Virus record (IMG/VR): IMGVR_UViG_3300029989_000020
Coordinates: 1 to 62,655 of that record
DNA from: a virus
DNA length: 62,655 nucleotides
Strand: one strand, 5' to 3'
Part shown: in pieces, positions 8,014 to 61,914 of the stretch
How the letters are laid out: each line of letters opens with the position of its first letter
Numbering within the stretch: position 1 is the stretch's first letter
Notes under the pieces: model-generated
Seen by the model: the letters and a program-made list of their open reading frames with translations, nothing else
Databases searched by the model: none
What the model was told of the DNA's origin: nothing
Program-made: the position numbers and the translations under genes

Positions 8014-8475
8014 GTGGCAGAAATAGTCCTCATGAAAACCGCAGGCGGCGTGCTGGCTCCAGTTGATCAGGCCGGCATCGACTACTTGCAAAAGCTCAAG
8101 GTCGGGGCTGGTGTCAGCGTGACGATCAAGCGACATAACAATGTCAAGTACCATCGTAAATTGTTTGCCCTTGCAAACTACGCTTTCGACTGCTGGGAGC
8201 CGCAAGCCATTGAGCATCGCGGCCAGGTGGTCGAAAAGCAATTTGACCAGTTTCGGGATGACATTACAATTTTGGCAGGATTCTACTCCACCCGCGTGAG
8301 GCTGGATGGAACTGTGCGCCTGATCGCTGATAGCTGGTCTTTCGCCAAGATGGACGATGACAAAAAGGAGGCTCTTTTTAATGGAATTATTAACGCCGTC
8401 CTCAAGCATATCTTGACGAAATCGACCCGCGAAGACATCGACAACATCATTGAAAATCTGCTGCGCTACGATTGA
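8014..8475 (+). CDS. DUF1367-type protein, 153 aa (GTG start)
   Basis: Begins MAEIVLMKTAGGVLAPVD with GTG 8014 behind AAAGGAGCG. The KYHRKLFALANYAFDCWEP segment, a beta-rich centre and an acidic C-terminus are the pattern of DUF1367, found in phage nin/recombination regions; function unknown. Last gene of the recT operon. Confidence 0.8.
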   Translation: MAEIVLMKTAGGVLAPVDQAGIDYLQKLKVGAGVSVTIKRHNNVKYHRKLFALANYAFDCWEPQAIEHRGQVVEKQFDQFRDDITILAGFYSTRVRLDGTVRLIADSWSFAKMDDDKKEALFNGIINAVLKHILTKSTREDIDNIIENLLRYD

Positions 8476-13504: not shown

Positions 13505-13509
13505 GAAGA

Positions 13510-13533
13510 AAGCCAGCATATAGCTGGCTTTTT
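13510..13533. terminator. Bidirectional terminator between convergent operons
   Basis: AAGCCAGC (13510-13517), five-base loop, GCTGGCTT (13523-13530), followed by T's on the plus strand and, because of the flanking A's, partly on the minus strand. It separates the plus-strand Rha gene from the minus-strand block ending at 13556. Confidence 0.88.
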
Positions 13534-13555: not shown

Positions 13556-13774
13556 CTATGCTTTGTGACCACGATCAATGAACCAGTCCAAGGCATCGCA
13601 AACTAGCACGTCATCATACCAGTCCTCAAACACGCGGCGGCATGCACGGTCGCGGAATATGCTCGGGCCGAGATACGAATGCCACTCCATGAAAACGCGC
13701 CGGCCGTCAGCCAGGCGCAACCGATAGACCGGCGACCAGCAAACTACGCCGCCATACATGTGCGTGCAAGTCAT
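13556..13774 (-). CDS. Hypothetical protein, 72 aa
   Basis: MTCTHMYGGVVCWSPVYRL..., rich in Arg/Trp/Asp and with several Cys, followed by an acidic-aromatic C-terminus (FEDWYDDVLVCDALDWF). ATG 13774 with GTGGAG is chosen; the upstream ATG at 13816 lies inside the preceding gene. Unrecognised, last gene of the 13.5-16.1 kb block. Confidence 0.65.
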   Translation of the reverse strand: MTCTHMYGGVVCWSPVYRLRLADGRRVFMEWHSYLGPSIFRDRACRRVFEDWYDDVLVCDALDWFIDRGHKA

Positions 13775-13775
13775 T

Positions 13776-14624
13776 TTAATCTCCACAAAAACATGATATG
13801 GCCTCTTCATTTTCATCGAATCCGTACATATCCGATTGAGATTTCACAAATGATTGCATGCTTTGATATGTTGGCCTATCAATTCTGAATTTAGCGCCAT
13901 TTCCGTTAGTAACATATTCAGCGGAACGTTCTTGATTGGCCCACCAAATAGCACGATCCGGCCTCTCCGCGATAAGGCTGACTAAGGATGCCCCAGTCTT
14001 AAGGAAACATAAATCACAATTCCCATGAACTGTTTTCCCGCCATTGTTCGGCAGTCCAAGGTCAAAATCTTGCTTTCGCCAGAATTCACCAACCTCGCCA
14101 GCAGTAACATTCGCATCAGCAAGTGGAATACGTATATTCTCATCGGGAGTTTCAGGCCGAGGATTTGAACGGAACTTTGCCACTCGCCTTTGCTCATCTG
14201 CGCGGATTCCCAAAATTGTTTCCCATTCATCAATTCCTAAAGATCTCAAATAACGATGAATAGTACGAGTTTTCATTTCTGATGAGCAGTATCTAGCCCT
14301 AGGATTTGGCAGAACCCCGCCGCGTTGCTTGATAATCGCCTCAAAAGGCTCTCCGTTTCTACTGGCCGTATCGAAGTTGACAATTTCAAAATTTGCGCCT
14401 TCCCGATATTCAAGCCAAGCAATATCAACTCCCCATTGTTTTCCGATATCGCGCACAAAAAGAAGTGTCGCCTCATCCTCTTTACCTGTATTGCAAAATA
14501 CTAAATGAGTGCCGTCAGGTATTCCGCAATTAGCGTCAATCACTTTCTTGACGAGATATGCAGAAGTTCTTCCACCACTTACATTTAAGCAAGTATTGCC
14601 GCTTACTTTGAAATAGCTCATCAT
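13776..14624 (-). CDS. PAPS-reductase-like PP-loop protein, 282 aa
   Basis: The family adenylates or reduces sulfur compounds, or acts in nucleic-acid thiolation-type chemistry. Seen here: LNVSGGRTSAYLVKKV (PP-loop; R replaces the usual K of SGGKDS), HLVFCNTGKEDEATLLFV, NPRARYCSSEMKTRTIHRYL, LGIRADEQRRVAK and paired cysteines CDLC and CFC near the C-terminus that could ligate a cluster. Such proteins are common phage cargo; DNA or tRNA modification, sulfur metabolism or anti-defence are all possible. Start by TGATG overlap with the upstream gene. Confidence 0.82.
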   Translation of the reverse strand: MMSYFKVSGNTCLNVSGGRTSAYLVKKVIDANCGIPDGTHLVFCNTGKEDEATLLFVRDIGKQWGVDIAWLEYREGANFEIVNFDTASRNGEPFEAIIKQRGGVLPNPRARYCSSEMKTRTIHRYLRSLGIDEWETILGIRADEQRRVAKFRSNPRPETPDENIRIPLADANVTAGEVGEFWRKQDFDLGLPNNGGKTVHGNCDLCFLKTGASLVSLIAERPDRAIWWANQERSAEYVTNGNGAKFRIDRPTYQSMQSFVKSQSDMYGFDENEEAISCFCGD

Positions 14625-14773
14625 CAATCCTTCGCAAAAAGAGCATCAAGGCCAATACCAACAAAAAACAGGCCTACCGCCACGCCGAATATCCAGTCGC
14701 CAAAGCTGGCCGTAACAGCAGCGGCCGATAGGGCGCACCAAGCGGCAAGGGCGATGGTTTGTAGGACTTTCAT
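14624..14773 (-). CDS. Membrane mini-protein, 49 aa
   Basis: Frame from ATG 14773 with two hydrophobic stretches (ALAAWCALSAAAVTASF and FGVAVGLFFVGIGLDALF). Probably a small inner-membrane hairpin. It starts by ATGA overlap with the gene at 14770 and ends by TGATG overlap with the PP-loop gene, so it is translated between them. Confidence 0.65.
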   Translation of the reverse strand: MKVLQTIALAAWCALSAAAVTASFGDWIFGVAVGLFFVGIGLDALFAKD

Positions 14774-15426
14774 TTGACGCCCGTAAGACGACTGTGCAAA
14801 TGTTTGGCGATGGCGATGGCGATGGCCGGATCAGTTCGGCTACGCTCTTTTTCTCGGTTCGGCCCTGGTGGCATCAGATGACAGGCCGCCTTGATTTCCC
14901 CCTTGGTATAATCGGCTTTCGTGTGCGTAGTAGGCACTTCATCAATACCCTTGAGCCAAAGATAAGCGCCTTTAGTGAATGGCGATCCAAGCATCCATGG
15001 CTGCAAAATCTGGTTGTATCGACCAAGGTGCTGCATTGCCAATCCATGAGGCTGTGAGTTCTCGATAATTTGAATTGGAATTTCGCTTTTTTGATGCGCC
15101 TTGAAAAATTCAATGCCCTTGAGGAAGTCGTCCATTCGGCTGGGGTAGCGCGGATGCCGGCGCCTCCGCTCGGGATTCAATGCCGTATCTTCTGGATGAT
15201 ATAGCCATTGCACTCCAGATAGCGCATTGAAAGTACAATAAGGATGCGCCACCAGCGCATCAAAGCTCTCTGCGCCGCTGCGCAATACATCCACCACATC
15301 GCCTTGAATATGCCAGCCGCGTGTTTTTGCTGGCCGCAAATCGCACGATACTGCTGTGTGGCCAAGGGCGGTAAGCGCATCGCGAATTCTTCCAGAATAT
15401 TCGCATGAAACAAGAATTCGGCTCAT
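14770..15426 (-). CDS. C5-cytosine-methyltransferase-like protein, 218 aa
   Basis: MSRILVSCEYSGRIRDALTALGH resembles the SAM-binding motif I of phage C5-methyltransferase-like proteins (ACE-SG-VRDA), followed by IQGDVVDVL and AHPYCTFNALSGVQWLYHPED. The usual motif IV is PPCT; here it is PYCT, keeping the Cys. IIENSQPHGLAMQHL and QILQPWMLGSPFTKGAYLWLKG match later family motifs. Whether it methylates DNA is uncertain because relatives lack a clear target-recognition domain. Confidence 0.75.
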   Translation of the reverse strand: MSRILVSCEYSGRIRDALTALGHTAVSCDLRPAKTRGWHIQGDVVDVLRSGAESFDALVAHPYCTFNALSGVQWLYHPEDTALNPERRRRHPRYPSRMDDFLKGIEFFKAHQKSEIPIQIIENSQPHGLAMQHLGRYNQILQPWMLGSPFTKGAYLWLKGIDEVPTTHTKADYTKGEIKAACHLMPPGPNREKERSRTDPAIAIAIAKHLHSRLTGVK

Positions 15427-15875
15427 GTTTGCTCCCTCATAGCTGGCCCCGATCCAAACAGCGCCGTAACAAGTTCATCCCTGGCGCAAACTACTTTCGG
15501 CCGCTTGATCTGATAATGCGTGTCATCGCTCATGATGTGGACAGTGACGCCGCAAGGTTGAGGCGAACCATTCTTTACTGGCAACGCCGAGCGCGGCTTT
15601 TGCGCCAGCGCTAGAGCAGACTCAAATGCTTCCACCAGGTTTGCACTGTGCAGCGAATAAACACGGTGATCGACCTCGCGTAAGACATCGGCATCGATCA
15701 ATTCGCGCACGTATTTGCGTGTGCCGCTGGGCGACATGCGCAGATGCTCGCTGATGCTGTCAAACGTCATCTTGTCGTTTTTGCGAAGCACGGCAATCAG
15801 GCCGGTGATGTTCGCCGTGCGCCGCGCCGTCGCCGATGTGACGCGAGTTCGGATATGTGGACTTTTACCGTGCAT
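15423..15875 (-). CDS. Winged-helix protein, 150 aa
   Basis: Residues about 20-70 (ANITGLIAVLRKNDKMTFDSISEHLRMSPSGTRKYVRELIDADVLREV) are a winged helix-turn-helix; the rest is low-complexity with HIMSDDTHYQIKRPKVV. Likely a regulator of this block or a DNA-binding accessory protein. ATGA overlap with the methyltransferase-like gene. Confidence 0.75.
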   Translation of the reverse strand: MHGKSPHIRTRVTSATARRTANITGLIAVLRKNDKMTFDSISEHLRMSPSGTRKYVRELIDADVLREVDHRVYSLHSANLVEAFESALALAQKPRSALPVKNGSPQPCGVTVHIMSDDTHYQIKRPKVVCARDELVTALFGSGPAMREQT

Positions 15876-15878
15876 GGC

Positions 15879-16109
15879 TCAGTCCTTTATGCCAGCCAGA
15901 AGACGGCGCACGCGAGGCAGCGAGAAGTGGCCATGCTCGATAGCTGCCAGGATGATTGTGGGGCCGACCTTGACGCGGCCTGCGCGCATGTTGCTGATCG
16001 TCGGCGGAAGCGATTCCAGCAGCTTTGCCAAAGCAGCATCGTTCTTGAGATTCAACTCTTCGATCATCGTGTCAAACAGCAGGTTTGCGTCGTTAATTTC
16101 TTGGTTCAT
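15879..16109 (-). CDS. Small HTH regulator, paralogue of the 1540-1755 protein, 76 aa
   Basis: LLFDTMIEELNLKNDAALAKLLESLPPTISNMRAGRVKVG gives a helix-turn-helix like that of the 71-aa protein at 1540. First gene of the minus-strand block, next to the divergent control region 16110-16288, so probably a repressor of one or both directions. Two such paralogues at two divergent promoters suggest two related switches. Confidence 0.75.
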   Translation of the reverse strand: MNQEINDANLLFDTMIEELNLKNDAALAKLLESLPPTISNMRAGRVKVGPTIILAAIEHGHFSLPRVRRLLAGIKD

Positions 16110-16288
16110 ATAGGCTCCGTAGTGGATGATTGGTCACGGCCCTATGTTAGCATGATTGAATTGGATTATCTATGTTGTTTGCATTGAATATTTCAAATAA
16201 AGTTGTTGACATTAAAATGCAAGTGGCGATATAGTTTGTCTGTCGGCGGCAAGTGCTGCTTGAAAAATCAACCAACATGGAGGCGGCT
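16110..16288. promoter_or_regulatory. Divergent control region with promoter P3
   Basis: Plus strand: TTGACA (16206-16211), 18 bases containing ATGCAAG, TATAGT (16230-16235). Minus strand: TTGAAA near 16195 and an ATAGATAAT element downstream of it. GCATTGAATATTTCAAA at 16181-16197 includes TTGAATATTTCAA, nearly palindromic, and GCATTGAATA is the reverse complement of a ten-base part of the P1 box. It probably holds operators for the HTH protein at 15879. Confidence 0.55.
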
Positions 16289-30825: not shown

Positions 30826-31542
30826 TTAAGGCATATCCGGCCAGTACCGGTTTGATTTTTTCAGATTTTCCAGCGCTGGCAAAACTCTTAAATTTGCCTC
30901 GCAATGAAGTCCACATACATACTTACTTTTCAAAGGCACTATATGATCAACATGATGAAATTCACCAGTCGCCATACCTAAAAAATTTGCCGCGAAGTAA
31001 AAATCTTGCATTTTTTCTTTGTTTGCCCATGTAGGAGTTGCCTGCATTTTATATGCGTATCTTCTGCGCTTTTTTTCGTTAATTTTATGCTTGTTCTGTG
31101 ACGCCCAAAGCCTTCTTGCTGCTGCTGATTTTTCTGGATTGATTGCTCTATATTTGCTGGCGTATTCAGCACATTTATTTTTGTTGTTTTTCTGCCATAT
31201 TTTTGCAGCAATTGACAATTTTTCTGTGTGTGTTTTTTGGTACTTGGCTATGTCTGCATTATCTTTTTCTTTATTTCTTAATCGCCAATTTTTCCGTGTT
31301 TCAGATGCCTTTTCTTTGTTTTCTCGATACCAATCGGATGATTTCGCAGAAAGTTTTTCAGCATTTCTCGCATGGTATTTTCTACATGTTTCTTTTCTTT
31401 TTTCTGGATTTTTTTCTATGTATGCTTTATTCGCAATTGATGCGCATTCTTTGCACGATGGATTAAAACCAGATTTATTTTGTTTTGTTTTGCCAAAACT
31501 GGTGAGTTCTTTTTCAATTTTACATTTCGTACATGTTTTCAT
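30826..31542 (-). CDS. HNH homing endonuclease-like protein, 238 aa
   Basis: N-terminal zinc ribbon CTKC...CKEC, a Lys/Asn-rich repeat region (RKETCRKYHARNAEKLSAKSSDWYRENKEK) binding DNA, and C-terminal HNH motif HHVDHIVPLKSKYVCGLHCEANLRVLP...N. It is very AT-rich compared with its neighbours and splits the sheath and tube genes, so it is a free-standing mobile gene, placed 29 bases after a terminator. Confidence 0.92.
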   Translation of the reverse strand: MKTCTKCKIEKELTSFGKTKQNKSGFNPSCKECASIANKAYIEKNPEKRKETCRKYHARNAEKLSAKSSDWYRENKEKASETRKNWRLRNKEKDNADIAKYQKTHTEKLSIAAKIWQKNNKNKCAEYASKYRAINPEKSAAARRLWASQNKHKINEKKRRRYAYKMQATPTWANKEKMQDFYFAANFLGMATGEFHHVDHIVPLKSKYVCGLHCEANLRVLPALENLKKSNRYWPDMP

Positions 31543-35307: not shown

Positions 35308-36240
35308 TTAACAACGACTTACTTTTCCATCTTTCACATATCTACTAATTGATGCCTCGCTAACTCCCAGCGCCTTAGCCATCGCTCTCTGAGAATCATA
35401 AATTTCACCAGTGTTCTTGTCTATGACTTTTTTACTGCACTTTTCAGCAGCTAGTTTTGCCATTTTTCGGCATTGTATCTTGTTCGCATCAGATGCGCGC
35501 CAAATATCCTGTCCTGCGCGGGCCGCCGCGAGATTCGCTGGGTTAGATGCAAAGGCTTTATATCCTTTTTTTGTAGACGCCTGCCCTTCTGGCGTGGCGG
35601 AATACGCGATTACCTTCTGCCGTTGCAATTCTTTTCCCTCTGCGCTCCTAGGGTCTTTTCTTCCCGCAAATATTCTTTTTAAGTGATCCGCCCCGCCTTC
35701 GGCCATCTGTTTTTTTGTTGCCGCTGATTTCATTGCTCGGTATTCTGGTCGCCTCCATGCTATCTTGCCCACCTCAGATTTTAATGGGGTTTTACAAAAT
35801 TCAGCATACCCTTTTTTTGTTTCATGGGATACCTGCCTACCTTTTAATGCAGCACTTAACTTTGCTCGCCAAGCAGGGTTATCCCATACTCTTTCACGCA
35901 TTAGAGCATGCATCACTGGGTTTGTAGCGGAATCTTGGCCTTGCCCTCCTTTGAGGATGTTATAGCCTTTTTTGTTGTTTGTTGAATCACGCAAATCAAT
36001 CTCGGATATTTCCGCAGAACAGCATTCATCGCGGCTATTGTGAGTGCTAATTATATGCATAATAGGCGCTCCGTGTTTTCTCCATGCACAGTAGACGGGG
36101 AGTTTTTTACCCGATCTAGCCGCGTACTTATGACTTTTATATCGAGACTCATAAAGTCCATTGGAATCCGTTTTACTCATTCCAATATAAACTTTTCCAT
36201 TATTAAAAGTCAGCGCATAAACAAAATAAACTACATCCAT
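35308..36240 (-). CDS. GIY-YIG homing endonuclease, 310 aa
   Basis: GIY-YIG nuclease core at residues 1-90 (VYFVYALTFNNGKVYIGMSKTDSNGLYESRYKSHKY...), Arg/Lys-rich NUMOD-type repeats (KKGYAEFCKTPLKSEVGKIAW), and a C-terminal DNA-binding helix-turn-helix (SQRAMAKALGVSEASISRYVKDG). AT-rich, inserted between the capsid and downstream head genes, with its ATG directly after the T-run of a terminator. Confidence 0.92.
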   Translation of the reverse strand: MDVVYFVYALTFNNGKVYIGMSKTDSNGLYESRYKSHKYAARSGKKLPVYCAWRKHGAPIMHIISTHNSRDECCSAEISEIDLRDSTNNKKGYNILKGGQGQDSATNPVMHALMRERVWDNPAWRAKLSAALKGRQVSHETKKGYAEFCKTPLKSEVGKIAWRRPEYRAMKSAATKKQMAEGGADHLKRIFAGRKDPRSAEGKELQRQKVIAYSATPEGQASTKKGYKAFASNPANLAAARAGQDIWRASDANKIQCRKMAKLAAEKCSKKVIDKNTGEIYDSQRAMAKALGVSEASISRYVKDGKVSRC

Positions 36241-52197: not shown

Positions 52198-52950
52198 TTA
52201 TTCGGGGATAACAACAATCACGGTGCTGACGTTTGTTCCTGATGTCTTAAACGAAGCTGCCGGCAGTTCTTCTATATGGCCGCCTCGCGCCGACACAAGA
52301 TCACGGAACTCGACTGTCAAGCGGTTTTCGCGGAACGCCACGCCAGCCGCCATGACCGAAACCAAGCGACCGCCCGACTTCAAAAACTTCAGCGCATGCA
52401 AAACATGTTTGATATCGGCCTGCTTTCCAAATGGCGGGTTCATTACCACGCGGTCATAAATTGGCGTCGGCACGATATCGAGAAAATTGCATGGTGCGGC
52501 CACGCCGGACAGCGGAAGATTCAACTCCGCGAGCGCGTCGCAGTTGGCCGGCATCAAGTCATACATGTCCACCGCTACACCTGATGCGGCCGCTTGGGCC
52601 GGTACGGCAAGTGCGCCGCGTCCCGCGCTAGGCTCCAGGACCATGGCGCCATCACGGATATCTGCAAGGTCAATCACTTGGCGGGCAACGATTTCTGGCG
52701 TCGGGAAAAATTCAAATTCATCCTTCGGCACAACAACGTCACCGGTCAGGATGATTTGTTCGATGCGGTCGGATGCATCGCTGTCGAAAATGTGAGCCTT
52801 CTTTGATCGGTTCCATTTACCGCCCGCCGCTTCCAGCACCTTGTTTGTGCGCTCGTACAGCTTGCGATCTAATTGACCGACCAAAAACAACGCTTGGCCA
52901 TCAATGCGGGCATTGCTCAAAACATTCATTACTTCACGATCAACTTGCAT
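52198..52950 (-). CDS. SAM-dependent DNA methyltransferase-like protein, 250 aa
   Basis: Residues 75-235 give motif I (VLEPSAGRGALAVPA), a VDMYDLMPAN acidic strand and catalytic NPPF (RVVMNPPFGKQADIKHV), typical of N6-adenine methyltransferase-type folds; an FFPTPEIVA motif precedes it, as in phage restriction-methylase-like proteins. The N-terminal 70 residues look like an accessory domain. Start ATG 52950 with GGAGAAG, driven by promoter P4. Confidence 0.82.
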   Translation of the reverse strand: MQVDREVMNVLSNARIDGQALFLVGQLDRKLYERTNKVLEAAGGKWNRSKKAHIFDSDASDRIEQIILTGDVVVPKDEFEFFPTPEIVARQVIDLADIRDGAMVLEPSAGRGALAVPAQAAASGVAVDMYDLMPANCDALAELNLPLSGVAAPCNFLDIVPTPIYDRVVMNPPFGKQADIKHVLHALKFLKSGGRLVSVMAAGVAFRENRLTVEFRDLVSARGGHIEELPAASFKTSGTNVSTVIVVIPE

Positions 52951-52959
52951 TTTCACTTC

Positions 52960-53028
52960 TCCATTTTCGCCGCGCTGTGTTGCGCTGCCTATGAGTAGAA
53001 CTATAGCAAACGCCACATGCAAATGCAA
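52960..53028 (-). promoter_or_regulatory. Promoter P4 with leader shared with P2
   Basis: Minus strand TTGCAT (53028-53023), 17 bases with a second TTGCAT, TATAGT (53005-53000). From TATAGT onward about 45 bases match the P2 leader almost base for base. Located 50 bases before the methyltransferase gene. Confidence 0.7.
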
Positions 53029-53035
53029 GCACAAT

Positions 53036-53383
53036 TTACCCGATGGACTGAATTTTTTCACGAGCTGCCGCAAGTTCAGCGTAAAGCTCTTGCCGATTCC
53101 GATCAACCTTGAGCGGCCGATTGCTGACGAACTTGGTGCTCATGCGTGCCTCCGCTTCAAGTTGCGCCTGAGTCGGCATGTAATACGCCTGCGCCCTGTT
53201 TCTAGCCATGCTGGCGCGAATCCTGCCCGAATGCGCAAGACTTGCCAGCGCCAGGCCCATAGCCGAACGATTCACCTTGAACCGTTTTGCCATTTCGGTG
53301 ATGTTGTAGAATTTTCCGGCGTTATCGGAAAGGAGTTGGACGATTTCGCCGGTATGCTCGGCAATTTGGGTATCAGTGTTCAT
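53036..53383 (-). CDS. Winged-helix protein, 115 aa
   Basis: MNTDTQIAEHTGEIVQLLSDNAGKFYNITEMAKRFKVNRSAMGLALASLAHSGRIRA is a winged helix-turn-helix, followed by a basic helix (VDRNRQELYAELAAAREKI). Starts at ATG 53383 by ATGA overlap and GGGGGAA. Possible regulator. Confidence 0.72.
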   Translation of the reverse strand: MNTDTQIAEHTGEIVQLLSDNAGKFYNITEMAKRFKVNRSAMGLALASLAHSGRIRASMARNRAQAYYMPTQAQLEAEARMSTKFVSNRPLKVDRNRQELYAELAAAREKIQSIG

Positions 53384-54603: not shown

Positions 54604-55253
54604 GGCTTGGGCGCTTCAATCTGCGCTGGGGCAATGAATTCTTGCGCGCATTGCATCTGGATCAATGGGGCGCTTGTGCCACCAGCCATGACAGCTTGCG
54701 CCTTCGCCTTGTCGCCAATCAGCAACGGCTTGAACATGAAATTAGCCGCCGCCTTGCTGTTGTGCGCGTTCGCCTGGCCGATCAGGATGGGCGCGTAGTC
54801 TGGTATCTCGCCGCGCATACGGTATCCCTTGTAACGCGTCTTGAAGTCATTCCCAACGAATGGCCACGCTTTGTCATCCTGCGAACAAAGCCAGATCCAG
54901 CCGCCCATATCGGCAAGCACGCGGTGAATGATTGCGTCATCGAAAACAACGTCCTGATATGGGCCGGCGCGCCTTACTGCCTCTTCCGCCTTAGACCATG
55001 CAATAGCCGACTGGTCGCCGGTGCTGCCTTGCATCATCTTGACGAACTCGGATACCTTGGGAAGGAATGAGCCTGACGTATCCGGGTTCTGTACGTGCGC
55101 CCATGCTGCTTTACGAATGTCCGGGAACTCGTACACTTTCAAGCTGTTCCAGTAAACGTCGATCACACCGTCCGATATTTCCTTGCCGTAATAGTCGCTA
55201 AGGCTCGTCATCAGCGTGGCAAACTGAATCTGCTGCTCAGGAGTGTTCTGCAT
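54600..55253 (-). CDS. Replication-region protein (DUF6475-like), 217 aa
   Basis: Residues 1-150 show LMTSLSDYYGKEISDGVIDVYWNSLKVYEF, AAWAHVQNPDTSGSFLPKVSEFVKMMQG and RVLADMGGWIWLC..., close to DUF6475 proteins adjacent to phage replication genes. Could act as helicase loader. Overlaps the next gene by 17 bases. Confidence 0.75.
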   Translation of the reverse strand: MQNTPEQQIQFATLMTSLSDYYGKEISDGVIDVYWNSLKVYEFPDIRKAAWAHVQNPDTSGSFLPKVSEFVKMMQGSTGDQSAIAWSKAEEAVRRAGPYQDVVFDDAIIHRVLADMGGWIWLCSQDDKAWPFVGNDFKTRYKGYRMRGEIPDYAPILIGQANAHNSKAAANFMFKPLLIGDKAKAQAVMAGGTSAPLIQMQCAQEFIAPAQIEAPKP

Positions 55254-55563
55254 TTTTCATCCTCTCCAGCCACGCCATAGCGTTGTTTGCGGTCGCTTGG
55301 CCTACCTTTCCTAAGCGGCTCATGTTCGGGCCGCTGGCGGGCGCTTGGCGCTTATCCTGACGCACCTGGAAGACGTCCTGCCAGTTGTTCATGGTGGACT
55401 GGTCCAGCACGGCGCCGATATCCTCACCAGCAGAACGGTAGCCGTCCAGCTTCTTGATAAGCAGCGTGACAGCGCGATCAGTCGGCACCTTCTTGATCTT
55501 CTTTCGCATGGCAAGGAAGCCTTCCCATTCAGGCAGTGGGAGCCAGTCGGGTAGTGGGTTCAT
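55237..55563 (-). CDS. Replication-protein C-terminal-like protein, 108 aa
   Basis: LPDWLPLPEWEGFLAMRKKIKKVPTDRAVTLLIKKLDGYRSAGEDIGAVLDQSTMNNWQDVFQVR is the helical motif found at the C-terminus of phage replication proteins, here stand-alone without an N-terminal HTH. ATG 55563 has AAGGA at five bases; 55569 overlaps the RtcB stop. Confidence 0.75.
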   Translation of the reverse strand: MNPLPDWLPLPEWEGFLAMRKKIKKVPTDRAVTLLIKKLDGYRSAGEDIGAVLDQSTMNNWQDVFQVRQDKRQAPASGPNMSRLGKVGQATANNAMAWLERMKNAEHS

Positions 55564-55565
55564 GC

Positions 55566-56789
55566 TCATCCTTTTACGCATACAACTTGGCGCAAGGTGT
55601 GCTCAATGCTGACAAGATCGGCTTGCGCAGCCATAACCGCATCAATATCTTTGTAGGCGGCTGGAGTCTCATCGATTACTTCATCGTCCTTGCGGCACTC
55701 AATACCAGCCGTAGCGGCTTCATGGTCGGCTAGCGTAAAACGGCGGCGAGCCTCCGCACGCGACATGGACCGGCCGGCACCATGCGAGCATGAGCAGAAA
55801 GAATCGGGATTCCCCTTACCTCGCACAATGAATGACTTGGCGCCCATACTGCCGGGGATGATCCCCAGGTCGCCCATGCGCGCTTGGACGGCACCTTTTC
55901 GCGTCACTAAAACATTCTGGCCGAAGTGGTTTTCATGCGATACGTAGTTGTGGTGGCAGTTGACGGCACCACAATCACAGGTAAAAGCCTTCGGCACAGC
56001 ACGCGACAAGGCGCCCAACGCGGCCACCATCATCAATTCTCGATTTGCTTTGGCAAAGTCCTGCGCCCAATGAACGGCTTTCAAATAGTCGTTAAACAGT
56101 GCGGAGCCTTCTGGAATATAAGCCAGATCCTTATCAGGTAGATTAATGAACCAGCGTTCCATATCCTTCTTAGCCAACTCAATGAAGTGTGACCCAATCT
56201 TGTTTCCGACACCGCGTGAGCCACTGTGCAACATGATCCAAACGCGATCAGATTCATCGAGGCAGATTTCTACAAAGTGATTTCCGCCACCGAGCGTGCC
56301 AAGGTGCGCTGCTGAACGCATGGCCGCTGCGCCAATTGCTGGGTGCTTGTCAATCAGGGGCTGCAATCCTGGCAGCATGCCGCCAAAGATACGCAACTGC
56401 TGATCTGGCACATTTGCCCATGCGCCACGATCACCCGCCATACCATTATTGGTCCTGCCATGCGGAATTACACGCTCCAATTCAGAACGCAGAGCGTGCA
56501 GGCTATCGGGAAGATCGCTAGCAGTAAGTGTCGTGCGCTGAGCCACCATTCCACAACCGATATCCACGCCAACTGCAGCCGGGATGATGGCTCCACGCGT
56601 GGCAATGACGCTGCCGATGGTAGCGCCCATACCCCAATGAACATCAGGCATGATGGCTATATGCTTATGGATGAATGGCATCGCCGCCATATTATCGAGT
56701 TGCTGGCGCGCAGCGTCTTCCAGTTGTACGCCATTTACCCATGCCTTAATAAGGCCGCCTTTTGATCCTTCGATTGCTTGAAATGACAT
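55566..56789 (-). CDS. rtcB: RtcB RNA ligase, 407 aa
   Basis: Joins 2',3'-cyclic phosphate and 5'-hydroxyl RNA ends. Diagnostic motifs: MPDVHWGMGATIGSVIA, GVDIGCGM (metal Cys), HLGTLGGGNHFVEI, HSGSRGVGNKIG, HNYVSHE, GSMGAKSFIVRG and CSHGAGR with the guanylated His. Full length. In this phage it may repair tRNAs cut by host anticodon nucleases, in line with its six tRNA genes. Ribosome site AAGGAGATAGC. Confidence 0.95.
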   Translation of the reverse strand: MSFQAIEGSKGGLIKAWVNGVQLEDAARQQLDNMAAMPFIHKHIAIMPDVHWGMGATIGSVIATRGAIIPAAVGVDIGCGMVAQRTTLTASDLPDSLHALRSELERVIPHGRTNNGMAGDRGAWANVPDQQLRIFGGMLPGLQPLIDKHPAIGAAAMRSAAHLGTLGGGNHFVEICLDESDRVWIMLHSGSRGVGNKIGSHFIELAKKDMERWFINLPDKDLAYIPEGSALFNDYLKAVHWAQDFAKANRELMMVAALGALSRAVPKAFTCDCGAVNCHHNYVSHENHFGQNVLVTRKGAVQARMGDLGIIPGSMGAKSFIVRGKGNPDSFCSCSHGAGRSMSRAEARRRFTLADHEAATAGIECRKDDEVIDETPAAYKDIDAVMAAQADLVSIEHTLRQVVCVKG

Positions 56790-60362: not shown

Positions 60363-60797
60363 TTATGCATTCTCCCGCTCGACAGCATCAGGGAAGCGAC
60401 TAGACGGCTTGTGCTTGGTGATAGGCGTTGATAGTAAAGCAAGCCATGACGCCGCTTGTATTTTCGGCGCCTTCAAACGGCCATAGTAAGCATCGCGGAT
60501 TTCAGCGCGACGGCCAGGATGCTTCTCGTTAAAGCGCCGCTGATAGTCTGCATCGGTCTGCGGCGGCGGCTTAGGTGCATCGACCGATGATTCACTCACG
60601 CGTAGCCGATAAAGCGGCACAGGACCGTTACGCAACGAAATCCAGCGACTCACGTATACAAGGCGCTCGACAGCAAGAATAAGCAGCCACTTTCCTACCG
60701 TGGAGCGGCTGACGCCCGAGCGCTTTGCCACTTGGTTGATTGTGCCAGGCAGCGCAGCCAGAACCTTATCACGATGCGATGGGCGGCCAGTTCTCAT
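60363..60797 (-). CDS. Winged-helix regulator at the end of the early operon, 144 aa
   Basis: DKVLAALPGTINQVAKRSGVSRSTVGKWLLILAVERLVYVSRW is a winged helix-turn-helix; middle Pro-rich, C-terminal QRRFNEKHPGRRAEIRDAYYGRLKAPK. Position after nuclease and methyltransferase genes, as Q-type activators in lambdoids, could mean a late regulator, but no Q signature is seen. Confidence 0.7.
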   Translation of the reverse strand: MRTGRPSHRDKVLAALPGTINQVAKRSGVSRSTVGKWLLILAVERLVYVSRWISLRNGPVPLYRLRVSESSVDAPKPPPQTDADYQRRFNEKHPGRRAEIRDAYYGRLKAPKIQAASWLALLSTPITKHKPSSRFPDAVERENA

Positions 60798-61735
60798 AGA
60801 AATGATCCTTGTGCAGTCAAAAGGTGAGCGTCAGCAATGCGCTCATCTTGCAGCGGCTTATAATCAGTATTGAGTTCGCAGCCGATATATTGGCGTCCAT
60901 GCTTAATTGCCACAGCAGCTGTCGTTCCACTCCCCATGAAAGGATCAAGAACCACGTCGCCAGTTCGACTACCGGCCAGAATACACGGCTCAATCAGCGC
61001 CGGCGGGAACGTGGCGAAGTGGGCGCCCTTGTAGGGACGGGTGGCGACGCTCCAGACGCTGCGGCGGTTGCGCGTTTCCGAAATCCCACATGAAGTGAAG
61101 CCGTGATTGCCTTGTTTTTCTTGACCCGTGCCGAGTCCATTTTCTCTAGCCCGTGGGCGCACAATCCCGCTGACACTAGGCTCCTTGATCGCTTCCGAGT
61201 CGAAAAAATAGCGCGGCGACTTCGACAGCAAGAAAATTTGCTCGTGCGCTTTGGTGCAGCGATCAGTTACGCTTTCCGGCATCGGGTTCGGTTTGTGCCA
61301 AATAATTTCTTGACGTAGATACCAGCCGTCGGCGCGCAGGGCGAAAGCAAGCATCCAAGGAATGCCGATCAGGTCTTTCGGCTTCATGCCGTCAGGCACA
61401 ATGGAACCTTTACCGCCAGCGGCTTGACTACCGCTATGCTTCGGGCCGCCCTTTGTGCTCGGGACTTGGTAGCTGCGGTTCGCGGCGTAACTGTCGCCAA
61501 TGTTCACCCAGAGCGTACCGTCGTCGGCCAGCACGTCGCGCACGTAGCGGAACACCTCGACCAGTTCCGCGATAAATTCGTCGGGCGTCGGCTCCAGGCC
61601 AATTTGCCCTGCATGGCCGTAATCGCGTAGGCCGAAGTACGGCGGGGAAGTGACGCAGGTTTGCACCTTGACGCCAGCAGCAGCCATTGCGCGTAGCGAT
61701 TCGCGGCAGTCGCCAAAATGAATCTGGTTAATCAT
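60794..61735 (-). CDS. Site-specific DNA methyltransferase, 313 aa
   Basis: N4-cytosine or N6-adenine type with motif IV first (VTSPPYFGLRDYG) and motif I last (VVLDPFMGSGTTAAVAIKHGRQYIGCELN), i.e. beta-class order; a target-recognition region lies between. Protects phage DNA against host restriction or marks it. ATG 61735 with AAGGA at five bases. Confidence 0.93.
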   Translation of the reverse strand: MINQIHFGDCRESLRAMAAAGVKVQTCVTSPPYFGLRDYGHAGQIGLEPTPDEFIAELVEVFRYVRDVLADDGTLWVNIGDSYAANRSYQVPSTKGGPKHSGSQAAGGKGSIVPDGMKPKDLIGIPWMLAFALRADGWYLRQEIIWHKPNPMPESVTDRCTKAHEQIFLLSKSPRYFFDSEAIKEPSVSGIVRPRARENGLGTGQEKQGNHGFTSCGISETRNRRSVWSVATRPYKGAHFATFPPALIEPCILAGSRTGDVVLDPFMGSGTTAAVAIKHGRQYIGCELNTDYKPLQDERIADAHLLTAQGSFL

Positions 61736-61737
61736 AT

Positions 61738-61914
61738 TCATCCTTTACTTGTTATGTTGCCATACGTGCGATACGTCACCACATCGCGCACAGTAGAAAC
61801 AGCTACGCCAAACTGCCGCGCAAGAGATTCGTATCCAGCGCCGCGCACACCTGGCTTATGGGCTGCGCGTAGGGCGTGGGCTTGTTCGGGCGTCAGGATT
61901 CTTTTGCGGGTCAT
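61738..61914 (-). CDS. Small HTH protein, 58 aa
   Basis: MTRKRILTPEQAHALRAAHKPGVRGAGYESLARQFGVAVSTVRDVVTYRTY is a homeodomain-like HTH typical of phage small DNA-binding proteins. ATG 61914 follows two bases after the upstream stop. Confidence 0.75.
   Translation of the reverse strand: MTRKRILTPEQAHALRAAHKPGVRGAGYESLARQFGVAVSTVRDVVTYRTYGNITSKG

Follow-up and report, generated by a model that had tools for sequence, protein, structure and literature searches.

The locus considered here raises two questions: what is the PP-loop protein that is customarily labelled a phosphoadenosine phosphosulfate (PAPS) reductase, and does it act together with the C5-methyltransferase-like protein encoded beside it? 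Both are encoded in a block of six minus-strand genes, positions 13556-16109 of IMG/VR virus record IMGVR_UViG_3300029989_000020. This single linear record of 62,655 bases is called the window below. An earlier note on this DNA described the block as an inserted module with a possible joint action in nucleic-acid modification. By sequence, the PP-loop protein, and with it NinC of phage lambda, belongs with the sulfurtransferases of DNA phosphorothioation, as a sister of SspD, and not with the PAPS reductases. The block is otherwise an ordinary mosaic operon, and the placement of NinC next to SspD is the finding that reaches beyond it.

Family placement of the PP-loop protein

The PP-loop protein is a member of the phage NinC family, phrog_424 (E 1.2e-41, residues 2-281), to which lambda NinC and gp42 of phage Chi also belong. 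It is 26% identical to lambda NinC (E 2e-17), and the family shares its length, a variant PP-loop, cysteines C114, C204 and C207, and a cysteine pair near the C-terminus, which in lambda NinC lies some 15-20 residues before the end. The match to PF01507 has an E-value of 5.5e-5, just above the Pfam cut-off. The best PADLOC model for this protein and five relatives including lambda NinC is SspD, with E-values from 1e-13 to 1e-17 (1.8e-16 for the protein of the window).

Six SspD proteins (E 1e-114 to 1e-138) were taken from 200 genomes of one bacterial order, which is also the source of the DndC sequences. Flanking open reading frames (ORFs) were scanned at three of the SspD loci, and SspC was found at two of them and SspE at one. 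A NinC-like match of the SspD search, L233, was excluded from the SspD set, and the single partial match to BrxP has no PP-loop motif and was not placed in the trees. When profiles were compared by hhalign with an alignment of 33 NinC-like rows, the six SspD proteins gave E 1.7e-17, eight DndC proteins 5.8e-7, five adenylylsulfate (APS) or PAPS reductases 8.6e-4 and two CysD proteins 3.8e-3. Likewise, each of eight NinC-type proteins scored 31-45 bits against the SspD profile and 4-20 bits against that of the APS/PAPS reductases.

Three trees were constructed from 34 or 38 proteins and 175-201 columns, using two alignment modes and two models, with SspD, DndC, APS/PAPS reductases, CysD and TtcA included. 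All three join NinC and SspD, with support of 94, 96 and 98, and leave DndC outside. In the approximately unbiased (AU) test the NinC-SspD grouping was kept (0.978), and the groupings of NinC with DndC (0.031), with APS reductase (0.001) and with CysD (0.0008) were rejected. The protein studied here stands in a sister clade and not inside the SspD clade itself. The identity as a PAPS reductase was discarded on the AU test and the profile scores. Thus the label "PAPS-reductase-like", used in the earlier note, is customary yet misleading.

The similarity to SspD of the SspABCD system extends to the motifs RWCT and CxxCF, a GIRADE-type motif, the terminal cysteine pair and a similar length. However, SspD has SGGKDS and has SspC or SspE as a neighbour (three loci), whereas NinC has SGGRTS with N46 in place of D, and no Ssp partner of it was found. 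DndC belongs to the same larger clade, has the cluster cysteines in the same three columns and also contains a GxR-type motif. Unlike NinC, the eight DndC proteins are about 350-560 aa long after trimming and keep SGGKDS, and none of the eight has the terminal cysteine pair.

No link between NinC and SspD appears in the titles and abstract openings of those open-access PMC papers that literature searches listed, and the word "NinC" does not occur in PMC10853773. The excluded L233, a NinC-like gene from a bacterium of the searched order, matches the PADLOC SspD model at 2.5e-14, and defence surveys might mistake matches of this type for SspD.

Conserved residues and predicted structure

Relatives in viral contigs were represented by the best 80 of 592 loci, collected with two search patterns, one containing NCDxCFL and the other FxNTGxE. 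The counts of CxxC and NTG among these loci are therefore partly built in by the patterns; those of SGGRTS, C114 and the C-terminal tail are not. SGGRTS, in which the Lys of SGGKDS is replaced and which the earlier note took for unusual, is a family signature. It is present in 78 of the 80 relatives and in lambda NinC; one relative has SAGRSS, and one extracted stretch starts past the motif. A damaged PP-loop peculiar to this phage can thus be set aside. In 16 NinC-type proteins the loop has R, Q or K as its fourth residue and T or S as its fifth, where SspD, DndC, CysD and TtcA have K and D.

A C-terminal cysteine pair is present in all 80 relatives, as CxCG[D/E] in 77 and CxxCTD in three; the tail of the protein itself is ISCFCGD. 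C114 is invariant across the 33 aligned NinC-like rows, as are the other cluster cysteines and R142, D144, E145 and R148. The three cysteines C114, C204 and C207 occur together in all NinC (16/16), SspD (6/6) and DndC (8/8) proteins and in cluster-type APS reductases (3/3). The full set is absent from E. coli CysH, from L222 and from either of the two CysD proteins; the match of TtcA at the C114 column varies with the alignment mode.

The AlphaFold model has a predicted local distance difference test (pLDDT) score of 90.7, falling to about 50 in the last 20 or so residues. Its best fold match is APS reductase (Z 13.7, root-mean-square deviation (rmsd) 3.5, 180 residues), and PAPS reductases, CysD, LarE and NcsA are also matched, so that the PP-loop fold claimed earlier is borne out. 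Thus the protein is, by its predicted fold, a PP-loop enzyme and, by its sequence, the sister of SspD. Sequence searches of the PDB, run for the individual proteins and profiles, yielded no credible match; the best in one of them were to integrase zinc fingers, at the CxxC motif, with E >=0.05.

Organization of the locus

The features of the block and its borders are as follows.

13507-13533: hairpin that separates the block from the convergent Rha gene, scored as terminator-like on the minus strand
13556-13774, minus strand: 72-aa phrog_7990 protein (E 2.9e-34; family without known function)
13776-14627, minus strand: NinC-family PP-loop protein (phrog_424), 283 aa from TTG; ATG starts also at 14624 and 14621
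14624-14773, minus strand: ORF for a 49-aa hydrophobic mini-protein, overlapping both neighbours
14770-15426, minus strand: C5-methyltransferase-like protein of 218 aa (phrog_757, PYCT clade), without a target-recognition domain
15423-15875, minus strand: winged-helix regulator of 150 aa (HTH_24 in Pfam, 2.4e-6), overlapping the methyltransferase start
15879-16109, minus strand: helix-turn-helix (HTH) protein of 76 aa, first gene of the operon (phrog_4441, 5.6e-5; phrog_638, 9.9e-5)
16142-16235: control region with a plus-strand promoter and imperfect repeats

In the direction of reading the order is HTH, winged HTH, C5-methyltransferase-like, hydrophobic mini-protein, PP-loop protein and phrog_7990 protein. 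All six are ORFs at the positions named earlier, and SGGRTS, PYCT and the regulators are in place. At each of the five junctions the genes either overlap or are no more than 3 nt apart, so that one transcript is plausible, and the six genes are probably co-transcribed.

The block had been said to lie between a bidirectional terminator and a divergent promoter. A strong hairpin is indeed present: with a folding energy of -16.4 kcal/mol (z -4.4), the structure at 13507-13533 was equalled by none of 200 shuffles. So is a plus-strand promoter at 16206-16235 (TTGACA-18-TATAGT, 11 of 12 matches). However, the promoter scan found no minus-strand promoter for the block, which leaves the divergent promoter established on the plus side alone, and the numbers of promoters and terminators given by the scan (3 and 4) are no higher than in shuffled sequences (4.1 and 4.5). 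Imperfect repeats about 28 nt apart, at 16142, 16170/16174 and 16202, are possible operators; these are short two-copy families that may have arisen by chance.

The listed ORF of the phrog_7990 protein starts at 13816, but the family match begins at residue 15, which corresponds to the likely start at ATG 13774. Among 12 relatives in viral contigs whose flanks were examined, two (L206, L211) share their locus with a distant NinC-like gene and none with a methyltransferase relative; the small protein may sometimes travel with NinC. The 49-aa mini-protein had no match at a meaningful E-value in Pfam, PHROGs and PADLOC scans, and its placement in the membrane, read by eye from the letters, is putative. 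Relatives of the 76-aa HTH protein occur in three methyltransferase loci (L011, L020, L024).

The phage also carries a homologue of the NinB/Orf recombination mediator (8014-8475, plus strand; phrog_319, 2.5e-42) and thus has both NinB and NinC. The two genes are adjacent in lambda, whereas here NinB lies 5.3 kb away on the opposite strand and the NinC gene is within a minus-strand operon with the methyltransferase. A NinB query found no relative in viral contigs.

The C5-methyltransferase-like protein

The methyltransferase-like protein belongs to phrog_757 (E 4.6e-35) and has no Pfam match at E<=1. Its model (pLDDT 89) is most similar to M.HhaI (Z 13.7, rmsd 3.7, 193 residues), and DNMT3, M.HaeIII and DNMT1 are also listed, which bears out the predicted C5-methyltransferase fold. 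It shares with M.HhaI, M.HaeIII and DNMT3 the fold over residues 1-217, a Cys past the fourth strand and Glu-Asn at the fifth. However, it is about 110 residues shorter than M.HhaI: 193 of its 218 residues align within residues 11-325 of that protein (327 aa), and the 25 remaining leave no space for a target-recognition domain.

Five residues, P62, C64, T65, E122 and N123, do not vary among 28 aligned rows. In the model C64 comes after the fourth strand, and the fifth closes with E122-N123. By this strand order, and not by residue alignment, C64 would be the Cys of motif IV and E122-N123 the Glu-Asn of motif VI. In C5 DNA methyltransferases Pro typically precedes the catalytic Cys; here the residue is Tyr (PYCT).

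The changed motif IV was correctly reported earlier but is not an oddity, being a clade feature. The 26 viral loci, collected by a scan without a motif IV pattern, have PYCT in 20 cases, PPCT in four, and PNCT and PTCT in one each. The genome loci, the best 80 of 427 and obtained partly with a pattern containing HP[YP]CT, have PPCT in 78 cases, PTCT in one, PECT in one and PYCT in none. The PYCT group has, in addition, an insertion after motif IV. The family phrog_757, annotated as "DNA methyltransferase" (gp12 of Bcep1, gp12 of P-SSP7, Pf-type phages), is homologous to our protein along nearly its whole length, but PYCT and the insertion set the latter in a separate clade. Since no genome locus among the matches listed is more than 42% identical to it, this clade seems to be absent from the searched genomes.

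A homologue of the winged-helix gene is directly upstream of the methyltransferase in three of the 21 loci that have a close methyltransferase (L011, L019, L024), and the winged-helix protein may be a regulator or helper of the methyltransferase. Directly downstream, a NinG-type endonuclease is encoded in at least four loci (L008, L012, L020, L031), that is, by four of the six downstream proteins scanned. In seven loci of the PYCT clade (L006-L010, L012, L014) a short cysteine-rich protein of about 70 aa or more, recognized by eye, directly precedes the methyltransferase, where the window has its winged-helix gene; the one scanned matched phrog_15529 at only 0.003.

Two further methyltransferase genes lie on the minus strand of the window. 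One, at 52198-53106, encodes a methyltransferase-like protein (phrog_9133, 4e-64; PADLOC mad2 model, 3e-13), and the other, at 60794-61741, a second, different DNA methyltransferase (phrog_67, 4e-77; PADLOC type II methyltransferase, 1e-102).

One module or a mosaic operon

Both families are common in phages: among 50,697 phage records the PP-loop family is present in 475 and the methyltransferase family in 134. Record counts of phrog_424 may include cellular-type PP-loop proteins, as it matches 14 of 14 control genomes. Both cysH and dcm are named among globally conserved viral auxiliary metabolic genes (AMGs) (PMC7288430, PMC9301287).

Contigs are short at many of the loci, with a median of 8 kb for those of the PP-loop gene, and the following co-location counts are thus lower bounds. 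A methyltransferase relative was found in seven of the 80 PP-loop loci by a profile search of their ORFs (E 1e-6), and tblastn found the same seven. A NinC-like gene is present in two of the 26 viral methyltransferase loci (L020, L028) and in one of the 80 genome loci (L135); L028 is one contig with L069. The seven co-located methyltransferases are 33-38% identical to that of the window.

In whole records, phrog_757 matches occur in ten of the 80 PP-loop records, two of them weak matches to ORFs of 459 and 485 aa. The control consisted of 18 records, a small set not matched in length, of which one has a phrog_757 match, also weak. Strong matches therefore number eight of 80 against none of 18 (Fisher p 0.34). 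In the opposite direction phrog_424 is rarer in the methyltransferase records (4/26) than in the control (5/18; Fisher p 0.45). There is no sign of pairing of the PP-loop protein and the methyltransferase, as judged against this small control.

The GC content at third codon positions (GC3) is 0.35 in the PP-loop gene, 0.67 in its phrog_7990 neighbour, 0.52 in the mini-protein gene, 0.50 in the methyltransferase gene and 0.62 and 0.69 in the regulators. Since it differs from gene to gene, with the PP-loop gene set apart by its low value, the operon was probably assembled from pieces. The GC content of the block as a whole is 0.506, which ranks 111 among 602 windows of the record and does not stand out. 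The spread of GC3 and the separate occurrence of relatives speak against a single imported module, and insertion in one piece is not supported; the description as a cargo-like accessory operon is supported. Separate occurrence of the genes in relatives is also the sequence part of the outcome that the earlier note named as refuting its reading.

The flanks of six RdgC-anchored loci contained no block genes (tblastn; NinC and methyltransferase profiles), yet two of the whole records, G106 and G110, contain phrog_424 matches, so no empty site is shown. A megablast search of positions 1-25000 against phages gave no match.

Proposed function

We put at about one half the chance that this mosaic operon combines a solitary SspD-like sulfurtransferase with an orphan mini C5-methyltransferase, the two working separately on nucleic acid. 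This reading builds on the gene structure, family placement, cysteine conservation, predicted folds and absence of conserved pairing described above; the cluster, the sulfur transfer, the substrates and the methylation are what it would add.

The operon would be read leftward from the control region at 16.1-16.25 kb and end at the hairpin at 13.5 kb. For the NinC-family protein the likeliest role is that of a sulfurtransferase, with C114, C204 and C207 as the putative ligands of an iron-sulfur cluster. A cysteine desulfurase of the host, for instance IscS, would pass sulfur to the mobile cysteine pair at the C-terminus. The altered PP-loop, with Thr or Ser for Asp, would hold the nucleotide or nucleic-acid end under activation. 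Phage DNA, or else tRNA, would be the molecule that receives the sulfur mark. The methyltransferase, an orphan of the C5-methyltransferase fold, would probably methylate cytosine in phage DNA, and the two enzymes would act independently. Of the modification of nucleic acid by both enzymes jointly, as proposed earlier, the field stands as the likeliest one, whereas the joint action is not supported.

A cluster with a sulfur relay seems the likeliest chemistry because the three cysteines fall in the cluster columns and the terminal pair is situated where SspD has CxxC. In DndC a 4Fe-4S centre is held by three cysteines and a cysteine dyad probably takes up sulfur (PMC10853773); the C280S mutant of DndC has no phosphorothioation, C280 being required for the cluster (PMC11662687). 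SspD is the equivalent of DndC and is bound by SspA (PMC10853773, PMC7188994). The PAPS reductase of type-4 BREX is without the dyad (PMC12839542). A host desulfurase would be needed, since no Ssp or Dnd partner and no desulfurase was found in the phage: none of the 19 window proteins scanned by PADLOC, the six of the block included, is SspA, SspB, SspC, SspE or a Dnd partner, and the record has no match to Aminotran_5, the cysteine desulfurase family.

These two negative results also count among the points that weigh against the reading. The Asp of SGGxDS is missing in all 16 NinC rows and kept in those of SspD, DndC, CysD and TtcA, and the family may therefore no longer act as an ATP pyrophosphatase. 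Among solved structures the closest folds are those of APS and PAPS reductases, and no SspD or DndC structure is among the matches listed. The candidate cluster site is defined by alignment columns and not by distances in the model. DndC as the closest kin was rejected by the AU test, although the Shimodaira-Hasegawa (SH) test did not reject it (0.158). The support of the NinC clade itself is just 90-92, and some NinC lineages could therefore be nearer to SspD than others. The methyltransferase, with no target-recognition domain and Tyr before the Cys, may be inactive or depend on a partner. To our knowledge, no function is known for lambda NinC. The excerpt of PMC10695390 states none either and reports that lambda lacking the nin genes still forms plaques, so that the role of NinC is not essential.

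Extended to the whole NinC family, many viral "cysH" genes included, the proposal is that these proteins are a phage branch of the SspD/DndC sulfurtransferases, solitary and with an Asp-less PP-loop, which use a host desulfurase to sulfurate DNA or else scramble host phosphorothioate marks. We regard this as somewhat less probable than an even chance. The sister position to SspD turns lambda NinC and viral "cysH" into a direct question: do these proteins place sulfur on nucleic acid, and does that matter on hosts with phosphorothioate defence? If they do, claims of viral sulfur assimilation that rest on a NinC-type gene need correcting.

Alternative explanations

The loss of the PP-loop Asp makes a decoy against phosphorothioate defence the main rival. 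The NinC-family protein would then mimic SspD or DndC, use its cysteine tail to bind either the cysteine desulfurase of the host or the modification complex, and disturb the sulfur marks of the host, modifying nothing itself. This agrees with the position next to SspD, the family-wide loss of the Asp and the lack of partner genes, and SspA is reported to bind SspD (PMC7188994). On the other hand, the invariance of R142, D144, E145, R148 and the cluster cysteines would go beyond the need of a decoy that only binds. Besides, the phages that carry the family (475 records) infect many different hosts, most of which probably have neither Ssp nor Dnd: in the bacterial order searched, full-length SspD was found in six of 200 genomes and DndC (E<=1e-30) in 19 of 300. 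On balance a decoy is unlikely.

Somewhat less probable still is transfer of sulfur to a tRNA base, as by TtcA or NcsA, which would tune the translation of phage mRNA. The fold matches do include NcsA, a thiolase of U34 in tRNA, and LarE, a sulfur transferase, and the phage encodes an RtcB RNA ligase. However, SspD and DndC, the closest relatives in sequence, act on DNA, and the recombination gene NinB is near the PP-loop gene in six of 80 loci.

That the protein is a true PAPS/APS reductase (CysH), an AMG that aids sulfate assimilation by the host, is very unlikely, although it agrees with the customary annotation (PF01507, the name of phrog_424, phage records), with APS reductase as the nearest solved fold and with viral cysH as a globally conserved AMG, one of 14 so counted (PMC7288430; also PMC9301287). 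The tree, the AU test and the profile scores given above favour SspD, and the ECGLH motif, present in the CysH proteins examined, is found at none of 80 C-termini, which have CFCGD-like tails instead.

Least probable of all, and scarcely credible, is a single modification made by the PP-loop protein and the methyltransferase together: they are neighbours in a tight operon here and the whole-record counts lean that way in one direction, but in relatives the genes occur mostly apart, those counts are not significant or run in reverse, the GC3 values are unlike and the co-located methyltransferases are distant.

Other genes of the phage

PHROGs matches to tail sheath, terminase and major head protein mark the virus as a tailed phage whose tail is contractile. 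The record has no match to Phage_integrase and so does not show the phage to be temperate. The RtcB-type RNA ligase is encoded at 55566-56789 on the minus strand (phrog_1075, 1.5e-147) and adjoins a piece resembling replication protein O (55237-55581, 2.5e-19). Two minus-strand ORFs of the late region, 30826-31542 and 35308-36240, resemble by eye free-standing endonucleases of the HNH and GIY-YIG types, and their GC content is low (0.42 and 0.47).

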